From assembly GCF_001713355.1 (NCBI RefSeq), contig NZ_CP016448.1, forward strand, positions 2,790,001-2,854,000: DNA of 64,000 nt. The letters run 5' to 3'. A program made the translations under genes and the position numbers. Positions 15,043 to 23,616 of this stretch are shown one piece after another (position 1 is the stretch's first letter; each line of letters starts with the position of its first letter). The DNA is from Methyloversatilis sp. RAC08 (lineage in GTDB: Bacteria; Pseudomonadota; Gammaproteobacteria; Burkholderiales; Rhodocyclaceae). The notes under the pieces are model-generated. The model saw only the letters and a program-made list of their open reading frames with translations. It was not told the origin of the DNA and did no database searches.

Positions 15043-15112
15043 AATCCAATTGTGCCTGCGACGCCCCCCGAGCGAACGATCCCCGTGTGAGCGACCCCTG
15101 TGGGAGCGACCG

Positions 15113-15198
15113 CTGTGGGAGCGGCGGCCTCGCCGCGATGCGAGCGCTGATCATCGACCATCGCTGCACTGATCGCGGCGAGGCCGCCGCTCCCACAG
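15113..15198. repeat. REP-like perfect inverted repeat, 27-bp arms
   Basis: Arms at 15113-15139 and 15172-15198 are exact reverse complements; each reads GTGGGAGCGG plus a GGCCTCGCCGCGAT-type end. The loop is 32 bases. Two degenerate GTGGGAGCGAC copies lie just upstream (15085-15112). The GTGGGAGCGG...CGCCGCGAT form is the style of repetitive extragenic palindromes in Pseudomonas and some betaproteobacteria. It lies between DUF454 and the transglutaminase gene, downstream of the latter. Confidence 0.85.
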
Positions 15199-15285
15199 CA
15201 AGCTCCCACAGCAAGCTCCCACAGCAAGCTCCCACAGCAAGCTCCCACAGCAAGCTCCCACAGCAAGCTCCCACAGCAAGCTCCC
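15189..15285. repeat. 13-bp tandem repeat, seven full copies
   Basis: Seven exact copies of GCTCCCACAGCAA run from 15189 to 15279, with a partial eighth (GCTCCC) at 15280-15285. The first unit starts inside the right arm of the REP-like palindrome, so the array looks like an expansion of that arm's end. The unit is not a multiple of three. Readings through it give only low-complexity protein. There are no spacers, so it is not CRISPR. Confidence 0.93.
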
Positions 15286-15325
15286 TGGCGCCCGCTCGCG
15301 GCGGCAACGCGTCCTTCCGCCGATG

Positions 15326-18879: not shown

Positions 18880-20409
18880 TCATTTGAGTCCTAGGCGGCG
18901 CGCCAGCTTGTGCAGATTGCTCGGGTCGACATCCAGCCGTCGTGCCGCGTCAGCCCAGTTGCCGGCACAGGCATCGAGCGCGGCGCGCACCAGCCTGCGC
19001 TGTGTGGCATCGATTGCTTCGCGCATGGACGGCAGTATGGCGCCGGACGTCGTGTCGCAGGTCTCCGGTGTTGCCGCGCGGGTGGTCACGCCATCCAGAT
19101 CGAGCAGTTCGGCCGGCAGCGACACGATGTCGGTGCGCGCGGCACCCCGGCTCACCGCCTTCAGCGCGGCACGGCTGATCACATGCTCGAGTTCGCGCAC
19201 ATTGCCGGGCCAAGGGTAGCGGCACAGCGCATCTTCCGCTTCCGGCGACAGACGCAGGCTGCGCAGGCCCAGGCGGGCACGGTTCAGTTCGAGAAAGCGT
19301 CCGGCCAGCAACAGTACGTCGCTGCCGCGCTCGCGCAGTGGCGGTATCGGCACCGGATACACCGACAGCCGGTGATACAGGTCGGCGCGGAAGGCGCCGT
19401 CGCGCACGCTGTCGCGCAGGGTGCGGTTGGTGGCAGCGATCACGCGTACATCGACGCGTCGCGGCTGGTCGGCGCCCAGGCGCTGGATTTCGCCGTTCTG
19501 CAATGCGCGCAGCAGCTTGGCCTGCACGGTCAGCGGCAGTTCGCCGACCTCGTCGAGAAACAGCGTGCCTCCATCCGCTGCTTCGAAGCGGCCCGGTCGG
19601 TCGGCGGTGGCGCCGGAGAACGCACCTTTCACGTGGCCGAACAGCTCGCTTTCAGCCAGGGATTCGGGCAGCGCGGCGCAATTGACATGTACCAGCGGCT
19701 GCGCGGCGCGGCGCGAATGACGGTGCAGGTGGCGGGCGAACAACTCCTTGCCGACGCCGGTTTCGCCGAGCAGAAGCACCGACAGTTCCGAATCGGCCAC
19801 CACCTTCATTTCGTGCAGCAGGCGCTGGATCACCTCGCTGTGGCCGACGATTTCTGCTTCGTCCGCGCTGGCGCCCTGCGCGTCGGCCCGTTCGCCGCCA
19901 CGCGACAGTCGCAGCGCGTGCAGATCCTGCTCGAGCCGGGTCACGCGCACGGCGGCTTCGACCAGCAAGGTGAAGCGGCGCAGGTCGTCGCGCGCCGCCT
20001 CGGTGAAGGTGCCGGTCTGCAGCGCGTCCAGCGTCAGCGCGCCCCAGGTCTGGCCCTCGACGTGCAGGCTGGTGCCCATGCAGTCGTGCACCGGCAGCGG
20101 TTCGCCGACGCGGGTGTCGAGCAGGCCGTCGTAGGGGTCGGGCAGCGTGCTGTCGTGGTCGAAGGCGGTGATGTCGCGTCGCGACAGGATGGTCGCCAGT
20201 CGCGGATGCTGGCCGACGACGAAGCGCCGCCCCAGCGTTTCGCGCACCAGACCGTCGACCGCCAGCGGGCGCAGGCTGTCTTCCTCGAGCTTCAGCAGCG
20301 CGACCGCCCCACAGCCGAAGTGGGTGCGCAAGCTCGATACCAGGCGTTGCAGGCGCACGGCGGGCGGCAGGTCCGACACCAGATCGGCCAGCAGCAGAGA
20401 TTCCATCAT
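18880..20409 (-). CDS. norR: NO-responsive sigma54 activator NorR
   Basis: 509 residues in NorR order: a GAF domain (about 20-170) that in the family senses NO through a mononuclear non-haem iron, a sigma54-activator AAA+ domain (about 187-420) with Walker A GETGVGKE, the GAFSGA-type loop (KGAFSGATA) and [10 protein letters not shown], then a Fis-type HTH at the end ([18 protein letters not shown]). LGRRF and LPDPYDGLL in the GAF region match NorR closely. It is divergent from ytfE-norB. Three GGT-N7-ACC sites lie directly upstream, the first touching its ATG, and no ribosome site is obvious there, so feedback control on norR is plausible. Confidence 0.95.
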
Positions 20410-20467
20410 GGTGCTAATAACCCGATTATGGTTCCAAAGACCATCTCAACTTGGGGTTAAAAATACC
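20410..20467. promoter_or_regulatory. Three NorR enhancer sites (GGT-N7-ACC)
   Basis: Exact copies at 20410-20422 (GGTGCTAATAACC), 20430-20442 (GGTTCCAAAGACC) and 20455-20467 (GGTTAAAAATACC). Centres are 20 and 25 bases apart. GGT-N7-ACC in three copies is the upstream activating sequence described for NorR in Ralstonia eutropha. They lie about 119, 99 and 74 bases upstream of the transcription start predicted from the sigma54 promoter. Site 1 directly abuts the norR start codon. Confidence 0.92.
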
Positions 20468-20508
20468 TTACTTTTTATAGGTTGTTGATTTTATTTGATT
20501 CAGAGGCA

Positions 20509-20524
20509 TGGCGCGGACCTTGCG
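20509..20524 (+). promoter_or_regulatory. Sigma54 (-24/-12) promoter of ytfE-norB
   Basis: TGGCGCGGACCTTGCG: the invariant GG at 20510-20511 and GC at 20522-20523 are exactly 10 bases apart, as sigma54 needs. Transcription should start near 20535, leaving a leader of about 25 bases before ytfE. The AT-rich stretch 20468-20500 between enhancers and promoter includes a near match to an IHF site on the minus strand, fitting DNA looping. Confidence 0.87.
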
Positions 20525-20560
20525 AAGTGAGGGTGTCTTCTTCCCCACGAGGCCTTGGCC

Positions 20561-21253
20561 ATGAACCTGATCGAACAATCCCTCGGCGCGCTTGCGCGCA
20601 GCATTCCCGGTGCGACCCGGGTGTTCCACGAACACAAGCTCGATTTCTGCTGCGGCGGCAAGCACAGCCTGCAGGACGCCGCGGCCGAGCGGGGCATTGA
20701 CGCACAGCCCATCGTCGAACGCTTGGGTGTGCTCCTGTCGCAGGCCACACGCGAGGCGCGCGACTGGCGCACCGTACCGGCCGCGGTGCTGATCGAACAC
20801 ATCCTGTTCCGCTTCCACGACCGGCATCGCGAACAGCTGCCGGAACTGACCCGCCTCGCGCGCCGCGTCGAACAGGTACACGGTGATCGCCCCGACTGCC
20901 CGACCGGTCTGGCCGACCATCTGACCGCCATGCAGCACGAACTGGAAAGCCATATGCAGAAGGAAGAGCAGGTGCTGTTCCCGATGCTTGCGCGCGGCCA
21001 GGCAAGCGCGCTGCAGGGGCCGGTCACGGTGCTGCGCAACGAACACGACCAGCACGGCGAGGCGCTGCAGCGGCTCGAGGCGCTGACCGACGACATCACG
21101 CTGCCGCGTGGTGCGTGCAACACCTGGCGCGCGCTCTACACCGGTCTGGCGGCGTTGCGCGAAGACCTGATGGAACACATTCACCTGGAGAACAACATCC
21201 TGTTCGAAGGGCTGAACGCGGCACCGGCCGAGTCGGAGGCCGCTCATGGGTGA
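20561..21253 (+). CDS. ytfE: Di-iron iron-sulfur cluster repair protein (YtfE/RIC/ScdA)
   Basis: 230 residues. The N-terminal ScdA-type segment holds the conserved DFCCGG motif; the rest is a hemerythrin-like four-helix domain with spaced His/Glu ligands (FHDRH, HLTAMQHELESHMQKEE, NEHDQHGE, HIHLENN). The family restores Fe-S centres damaged by NO or oxidants and may itself reduce or release NO. The ATG at 20561 is chosen over a TTG two codons earlier. It is the first gene behind the NorR/sigma54 promoter and overlaps norB by 8 bases. Confidence 0.93.
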   Translation: MNLIEQSLGALARSIPGATRVFHEHKLDFCCGGKHSLQDAAAERGIDAQPIVERLGVLLSQATREARDWRTVPAAVLIEHILFRFHDRHREQLPELTRLARRVEQVHGDRPDCPTGLADHLTAMQHELESHMQKEEQVLFPMLARGQASALQGPVTVLRNEHDQHGEALQRLEALTDDITLPRGACNTWRALYTGLAALREDLMEHIHLENNILFEGLNAAPAESEAAHG

Positions 21254-23531
21254 TTACCGCAAGCTGTGGTTCACGCTGATCGGCGTGCTCATCGTCACCT
21301 TTTCGCTGCTCGGTTACTACGGTGTCGAGGTGTATCGCAACGCGCCGCCGATTCCGCAGCAGATTGTCAGTGAAGACGGACGCGTGCTGTACACGCATGA
21401 CGGCATCCTCGACGGCCAGACCGCGTGGCAGTCGGTCGGCGGCATGCAACTGGGCTCGATCTGGGGCCACGGCGCCTACCAGGCGCCGGACTGGACCGCC
21501 GACTGGTTGCACCGCGAACTGCTGGCCTGGCTCGACCTCGCCGCGCAGGACGCGCACGGCAAGCCCTACGCCGAACTGGATGCCGATGCGCAGGCGCTGC
21601 TGGCAGCACGTCTGAAGCGCGAGTACCGGCGCAACACCTATGACGCGGCGACCGGCGCGGCCACCGTATCCACCTTGCGCGCCCGGGCGATCGAGCGCAC
21701 CGCCGACTACTACGTCCAGCTGTTCGGCGACGCGCCGGCGCTGCAGGGCTCGCGCGAAAGCTATGCGATGAAGGACAACACGCTGCCCGACCCGCAGCGG
21801 CGCGCGCAGCTGGCCGGCTTCTTCTTCTGGACCGCCTGGGTGGCCGCGACCGAGCGGCCGGGTACCAGCGCCACCTACACCAACAACTGGCCGCACGAAC
21901 CGCTGATCGGCAATGCGCCGACGGCGGAGAACGTGGTGTGGTCCGTCGTCAGCGTGGTGGTCATGATGGCCGGCGTCGGCTTCCTCATCTGGGGCTGGTC
22001 CTTCCTGCGCAGGCAGGATGAAAGCGACCCGGCCGCGCCGGCGCAGGACCCGCTTTCGCGCGTCGCGCCGACGCCATCGCAACGTGCGCTCGGCAAGTAC
22101 CTCGTCCTGGTGGTGGCGCTGTTCGTGTTCCAGGTCATGATGGGTGGCTTCACCGCGCACTACACGGTCGAGGGCCAGACCTTCTACGGTATCGACGTAT
22201 CGCAGTGGTTCCCGTATTCGCTGGTACGCACCTGGCACATCCAGAGCGCACTGTTCTGGATCGCCACCGGCTTTCTGGCCGCCGGGCTGTTCCTTGCGCC
22301 ACTGATCCACGGCGGGCGCGACCCGAAGTTCCAGAAGGTCGGTGTGGATGTGCTGTTCTGGGCGCTGGTCGTGGTGGTGGCCGGCTCTTTCGTCGGCAAC
22401 TACCTGGCCATTGCGCAGATCATGCCGCCGGAACTGAATTTCTGGCTCGGCCACCAGGGCTACGAATACGTCGACCTCGGCCGCCTGTGGCAGATCGGCA
22501 AGTTCGTCGGCGTGGCGCTGTGGCTGGTGCTCATGCTGCGCGGCATCGTGCCGGCGCTGCGCACGCCCGGCGGCGACAAGAACCTGCTGGCGCTGCTCAC
22601 CGCTTCGGTGGTGGCGATCGGCCTGTTCTATGGCGCCGGCTTCTTCTATGGCGAGCGCACCCACCTGACGGTGATGGAGTACTGGCGCTGGTGGGTCGTG
22701 CATCTGTGGGTCGAAGGGTTCTTCGAAGTGTTCGCGACCACAGCGCTGGCCTTCATCTTCTCCACGCTCGGTCTCGTTTCTGCCCGCATGGCGACGGCGG
22801 CCAGCCTGGCGTCGGCTTCGCTGTTCATGCTGGGCGGCGTGCCCGGCACCTTCCACCACCTCTACTTTGCCGGTACGACAACACCGGTGATGGCGGTCGG
22901 TGCCTCGTTCAGCGCGCTCGAAGTGGTGCCGCTGGTCGTGCTCGGTCATGAGGCGTGGGAGAACTGGCGCCTGAAGGATCGCGCAGCGTGGATGGCGAAG
23001 CTGAAGTGGCCGCTGATGTGCTTCGTCGCGGTCGCGTTCTGGAACATGCTCGGCGCCGGCGTATTCGGCTTCATGATCAACCCGCCGATCTCGCTGTATT
23101 ACGTGCAGGGCCTTAACACGACGCCGGTGCATGCCCATGCCGCGCTGTTCGGGGTCTATGGCTTCCTCGCGCTCGGCTTCACGCTGCTGGTGCTGCGCTA
23201 CCTGCGGCCGCAGCTGGCATTCGGTGAGCGGCTGATGCAGACCGGCTTCTGGGGGCTCAACGCGGGTCTGGTGCTGATGATCGCGACCAGCCTGCTGCCG
23301 ATCGGCCTGATCCAGTTTCACGCCAGCGTCAGCCAGGGTCTGTGGTACGCACGCAGCGAGGAATTCATGCAGCAGCCGCTGCTGGAAACGCTGCGCTGGG
23401 TGCGCACCTTCGGCGACGTGGTGTTCATCGTGGGCGCGCTGGCGGTGGCCTGGCAGGTGGTGTCGGGCGTGTTCGGCCGTAGCGGCCGCACGCCGGAACC
23501 GGTCGGCACGCTGGCAGGGGCCCGTCGATGA
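21246..23531 (+). CDS. norB: Quinol-dependent nitric oxide reductase (qNor)
   Basis: 761 residues. It reduces two NO to N2O in the cytoplasmic membrane, taking electrons directly from quinol. The length and the N-terminal extension (TM helix, then about 190 periplasmic residues resembling NorC but without a CxxCH) mark the single-subunit quinol type (norZ in some species). The haem-copper-like core follows with about 12 helices and conserved His clusters, for example WWVVHLWVEGFFEVF and GTFHHLYFAGTT. It overlaps ytfE and is followed by a strong terminator, so ytfE-norB is a two-gene detoxification operon. No nitrite or N2O reductase genes are in the window. Confidence 0.95.
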   Translation: MGDYRKLWFTLIGVLIVTFSLLGYYGVEVYRNAPPIPQQIVSEDGRVLYTHDGILDGQTAWQSVGGMQLGSIWGHGAYQAPDWTADWLHRELLAWLDLAAQDAHGKPYAELDADAQALLAARLKREYRRNTYDAATGAATVSTLRARAIERTADYYVQLFGDAPALQGSRESYAMKDNTLPDPQRRAQLAGFFFWTAWVAATERPGTSATYTNNWPHEPLIGNAPTAENVVWSVVSVVVMMAGVGFLIWGWSFLRRQDESDPAAPAQDPLSRVAPTPSQRALGKYLVLVVALFVFQVMMGGFTAHYTVEGQTFYGIDVSQWFPYSLVRTWHIQSALFWIATGFLAAGLFLAPLIHGGRDPKFQKVGVDVLFWALVVVVAGSFVGNYLAIAQIMPPELNFWLGHQGYEYVDLGRLWQIGKFVGVALWLVLMLRGIVPALRTPGGDKNLLALLTASVVAIGLFYGAGFFYGERTHLTVMEYWRWWVVHLWVEGFFEVFATTALAFIFSTLGLVSARMATAASLASASLFMLGGVPGTFHHLYFAGTTTPVMAVGASFSALEVVPLVVLGHEAWENWRLKDRAAWMAKLKWPLMCFVAVAFWNMLGAGVFGFMINPPISLYYVQGLNTTPVHAHAALFGVYGFLALGFTLLVLRYLRPQLAFGERLMQTGFWGLNAGLVLMIATSLLPIGLIQFHASVSQGLWYARSEEFMQQPLLETLRWVRTFGDVVFIVGALAVAWQVVSGVFGRSGRTPEPVGTLAGARR

Positions 23532-23580: not shown

Positions 23581-23616
23581 GGAGCGCCGTGCCGCGAGGC
23601 CGGCGCTCCTTTTTTT
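23581..23616 (+). terminator. Rho-independent terminator of ytfE-norB
   Basis: Arms GGAGCGCCG (23581-23589) and CGGCGCTCC (23601-23609) with an 11-base loop, followed directly by seven T residues (23610-23616). Confidence 0.9.

Follow-up and report, generated by a model that had tools for sequence, protein, structure and literature searches.

The DNA that we analyzed is a stretch of 64,000 nucleotides from Methyloversatilis sp. RAC08 (the window; positions are counted from its first letter). In it, norR lies divergent from ytfE and norB, and the control region occupies the 151-bp intergenic region between norR and ytfE. The genes and the terminator behind them are as follows.

18880 to 20409, minus strand: norR, 509 amino acids, an NO-sensing sigma-54 activator with GAF, AAA+, and Fis-type HTH domains and a GAFSGA motif
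20561 to 21253, plus strand: ytfE (norA), 230 amino acids, a di-iron Fe-S repair/NO-binding protein
21246 to 23531, plus strand: norB, 761 amino acids, a single-subunit quinol NO reductase (qNor)
23581 to 23615, plus strand: intrinsic terminator 3' of norB, GGAGCGCC ... GGCGCTCC and then a T run (scan match at 23589 to 23606)

The NorR protein scored 719 bits against NCBIfam NF003451 (cutoff, 476), has the Pfam domains GAF, Sigma54_activat, and HTH_8, adjoins its target operon, and is 97% identical to the NorR of a Methyloversatilis metagenome-assembled genome. YtfE scored 341 bits against NF008221 (cutoff, 254) and carries ScdA_N plus hemerythrin domains. NorB has the Pfam domains NorB_cytochrome_c-like and COX1 and matches over its full length the chains of solved structures of nitric oxide reductase subunit B, e.g., 8bgw and 6qq5. 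The genome search found one NorR, one YtfE, and one qNor, along with rpoN (sigma-54) and three genes of the HU/IHF family. Searches for NirS and NirK gave only weak or subthreshold matches, and the NO reductase is therefore not tied here to a recognized nitrite reductase. The 8-nt overlap of ytfE and norB and the terminator after norB bear out the original prediction that the two genes form a single unit. Elsewhere in the window, at 15087 to 15310, repeated amino acid strings in overlapping open reading frames (LLWELAVGACCG, and SSHSKLPQQAPTA in another frame) point to a short stretch of DNA repeated in tandem.

The intergenic region contains five features.

20410 to 20422, no strand: predicted NorR site 1, GGTGCTAATAACC, exact GGT-N7-ACC, adjoining the norR ATG
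20430 to 20442, no strand: predicted NorR site 2, GGTTCCAAAGACC, exact GGT-N7-ACC, 20 bp from site 1
20455 to 20467, no strand: predicted NorR site 3, GGTTAAAAATACC, exact GGT-N7-ACC, 25 bp from site 2
20478 to 20490, minus strand: IHF-like site, AATCAACAACCTA, within the AT-rich spacer, differing from WATCAANNNNTTR by one mismatch
20509 to 20523, plus strand: predicted sigma-54 promoter of ytfE-norB, TGGCGCGGACCTTGC, TGGCGC-N5-TTGC, with GG at 20510 to 20511 and GC at 20522 to 20523

The three exact GGT-N7-ACC sites that had been read here stand letter for letter at 20410, 20430, and 20455. Single matches to this pattern are common in the GC-rich window (n = 39), as would be expected if the three were chance palindromes of a GC-rich genome. 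First-order Markov simulation of the 151-bp region yielded no sequence with three sites in 20,000 runs (14 had at least two), and three in a row, scored as two overlapping pairs, occur only at this locus in the 3.94-Mb genome. When the genome was searched with the looser pair pattern GT-N7-AC, each strand had 278 matches, which is below the number for the reversed control, and the search was for that reason uninformative. The register of the sites is moreover kept across relatives in the Betaproteobacteria and Pseudomonas, which already refutes chance palindromes as an explanation; we give it practically no probability.

To follow this register, we compared the regions between norR and its divergent neighbor in relatives from the genus, the order, the class, and plasmids. 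A triple of the GGT type was found at 35 loci including the window, 34 of them distinct, as two (L001 and L108) are apparently the same contig; at three of the 35 it departs by one or two letters. The site spacings are 18 to 21 and 24 to 26 bp at all of these loci. A sigma-54 element lies 39 to 42 bp past site 3 at nearly all of them, the exceptions being L091 and L095 (52 to 53 bp) and L097, where none was scored. Within the N7 stretches and the gaps, the letters vary freely, and what is conserved is therefore the register and not a recent sequence identity. Three other genomes of the genus (L114, L115, and L116) have norR-ytfE, but norB was not found behind ytfE; a DUF1508 gene comes after ytfE in L114, which means that norB was either lost there or inserted between ytfE and the DUF1508 gene elsewhere.

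In the window, the −24/−12 element TGGCGCGGACCTTGC has 9 of the 10 consensus letters and begins 41 bp beyond the end of site 3, in agreement with the GG-N10-GC promoter originally proposed ahead of ytfE. From the position of this element, transcription of ytfE probably starts near 20535, the same position that had been suggested before. The AT-rich stretch that was said to separate the sites from the promoter is also present, at 20468 to 20508, and holds the IHF-like motif, although about 9% of shuffled sequences do equally well, so that the motif of the window taken alone is not beyond chance. Most relatives have such a motif on the minus strand, 9 to 11 nt past site 3, and in several (L002, L092, L093, L127, and L128) it is free of mismatches. 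At L005, L096, and L097, it is found about 12 nt farther on, on the plus strand; across the relatives, the spacer thus offers two alternative positions and strands for the motif, approximately one helical turn apart.

The closest known system is that of Cupriavidus necator (Ralstonia eutropha) H16, where plasmid pHG1 carries a divergent norR and norA(ytfE)-norB in the same order, with a qNor, three GGT-N7-ACC sites (spaced 19 and 26 bp), an IHF-like site, a sigma-54 promoter 39 bp on, and an in-frame norR ATG that exactly abuts site 1, as in the window. The two NorR proteins are 71% identical. The differences are that the locus of the window is chromosomal, that the annotated norR ATG of C. 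necator lies 9 nt further in, and that ytfE and norB are 46 nt apart there and overlap in the window. NorR is known to activate norVW of Escherichia coli and norAB of R. eutropha through three GT-N7-AC sites in tandem that precede a sigma-54 promoter (PMC1274295), and in Ralstonia solanacearum, norA expression is 15-fold lower without norR (PMC9045102). The module is thus already known, and the R. eutropha norAB regulon is the same system. The coupling of YtfE with a quinol NO reductase, which the original prediction had singled out as an economical design, is a real unit but not a new one, since the gene order is shared with C. necator H16 and norAB is on record (PMC1274295).

The enteric norR-norVW loci, including that of E. 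coli, likewise have three tandem NorR sites (20 to 21 and 24 bp apart), an IHF motif, which is perfect there, and a sigma-54 promoter, and in E. coli, the NorR hexamer is scaffolded by the three enhancer sites, none of which is dispensable (PMC2941729). They differ from the window in their site type (GTC-N5-GAC) and in their target, which according to the literature is flavorubredoxin. The GAF iron-site block DSxLPDPYDG ... VHDCMG, including its H-x-C pair, is conserved between the window NorR and the enteric NorR. In the sigma-54 contact loop, the enterics have the usual GAFTGA, and the window NorR has GAFSGA (residues 262 to 267, about 19609 to 19626). This substitution counts against a norAB-type reading, though it is clade-wide, being present in all GGT-clade NorR proteins examined. 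The last helix of the HTH (18880 to 18970 in the window) reads SNLHK in the window and in most GGT-type NorR proteins, in contrast to ANLHR or ANLQR in most GT-type ones; in the recognition helix of the enterics, it is ANLHR. These letters parallel the operator type, GGT-N7-ACC against GTC-N5-GAC, and the correlation points to a possible specificity switch.

Family assignment, the presence of rpoN, and position-exact conservation together strongly support the reading of the region as a NorR/sigma-54 switch, and we consider it very probable that the locus belongs to the C. necator norAB type of NorR-dependent sigma-54 enhancer-promoters. We infer the following course of events from these parts. 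NorR dimers would occupy the three tandem sites and assemble a hexamer restrained by the GAF domain; NO binding at the GAF iron would release the AAA+ ring, which, with the spacer looped by IHF or by intrinsic bending, would open the sigma-54 polymerase at 20509 to 20523. The ytfE-norB mRNA would then run from near 20535 to about 23615, YtfE would repair or buffer NO damage, and qNor would turn NO into N2O. On the other side, NorR bound at the operators would repress transcription of norR.

The lightly documented detail of the locus is the position of the first NorR site against norR's own start codon. As had been predicted, site 1 touches the norR ATG (minus strand, 20409 to 20407), with a gap of 0 nt, and a second in-frame ATG follows directly at 20406 to 20404. 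There is no separate ribosome site: the only Shine-Dalgarno-like letters of norR are those of the operator's own GGGT half, and the best anti-Shine-Dalgarno duplex has −3.2 kcal/mol, against −5.9 for ytfE and −9.5 for norB (norR median over 32 loci, −3.9 kcal/mol). An in-frame norR ATG lies 0 to 3 nt from site 1 at 31 of the 34 distinct GGT-type loci (the exceptions are L097, L098, and L116), whereas in most enterics, the norR start is tens of nucleotides from the site, in some cases with a Shine-Dalgarno sequence. The betaproteobacterial NorR-hmp clade (L008, L102, L103, and L118 to L122) resembles the window in having norR divergent from an NO-detoxifying gene and three sites with the norR ATG at site 1, but its target is the flavohemoglobin Hmp, read as the neighbor of norR in L008, L103, and L118, and its ATG lies within site 1, as in GTNNNNATGAC. 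About half of the Methyloversatilis genomes, six in number (L117 to L122), have a second NorR (55 to 58% identical), which the genome of the window lacks; this second norR has its start codon inside operator site 1 and is divergent from hmp in L118. The contact between operator and start codon is a real and conserved feature, as judged by comparison of these loci. We found no description of it in the searchable literature; the primary papers on the R. eutropha NorR may have one.

Neither a consensus scan nor a weight-matrix scan over the 35 loci revealed a sigma-70 promoter for norR that stands out (best window score, 7.2; shuffle mean, 6.7). A −50 promoter match that recurred in some relatives was discarded, as it follows from the conserved letters of site 3 and the IHF motif. 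With site 1 ending right at the start codon of norR and no strong Shine-Dalgarno sequence or sigma-70 promoter recognizable, a norR promoter located in the gap would have to overlap the operators, and NorR therefore most likely represses its own transcription. Negative autoregulation was suggested for NorR2 by Rodionov et al. 2005 (PMC1274295). The original prediction held that NorR at site 1 should limit its own translation or transcription. The transcriptional half is plausible, the geometry being compatible with autorepression via site 1; a direct block of norR translation is not supported, because NorR is a DNA-binding protein and in the mRNA the operator halves are single-stranded RNA.

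The contact could also result from compaction of the intergenic region, with an enhancer fixed about 150 bp off the ytfE start and a weak promoter that keeps norR expression constantly low and free of regulation by NorR; this alternative bears on the autoregulation step alone. The enhancer-promoter register is fixed in all clades, so that compaction by itself would move the start of norR closer to site 1, and the lack of a recognizable norR promoter fits as well. Yet the register of 0 to 3 nt survives large sequence divergence, pure compaction does not need the ATG inside site 1 that is seen in the NorR-hmp clade, and any promoter in the gap would still have to overlap bound NorR. We consider compaction rather unlikely, though worth keeping in mind. 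A further alternative is a norR mRNA with little or no leader, its start lying inside site 1 and being physically covered by bound NorR. The weak Shine-Dalgarno energies in the window and across the 32 loci, together with the conserved start codon contact, would agree with this, but the N7 letters show no conserved −10 element where one would be required, and a weak AAGG or GAGG stands at 12 nt in several relatives. The weight-matrix scan gave no support to leaderless transcription driven by a canonical −10 element, and we regard a leaderless norR as improbable.

Autorepression at the level of transcription remains our preferred account of the contact. A more far-reaching idea, which we put forward as speculation with the odds against it, is that in the GGT-type and betaproteobacterial hmp-type clades, the distal site has become fused with the start codon of norR and serves at once as enhancer, as a cover of the transcription start, and, in the RNA, as the whole ribosome-loading region. 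If true, the fused distal site would be a self-limiting enhancer, and one that is conserved in both Beta- and Gammaproteobacteria. A bacterium of a methylotroph genus with a single such NO reductase has the C. necator norAB switch, position for position. This leaves the broad picture unchanged, and the conserved contact between operator and start codon makes NorR autoregulation directly testable.
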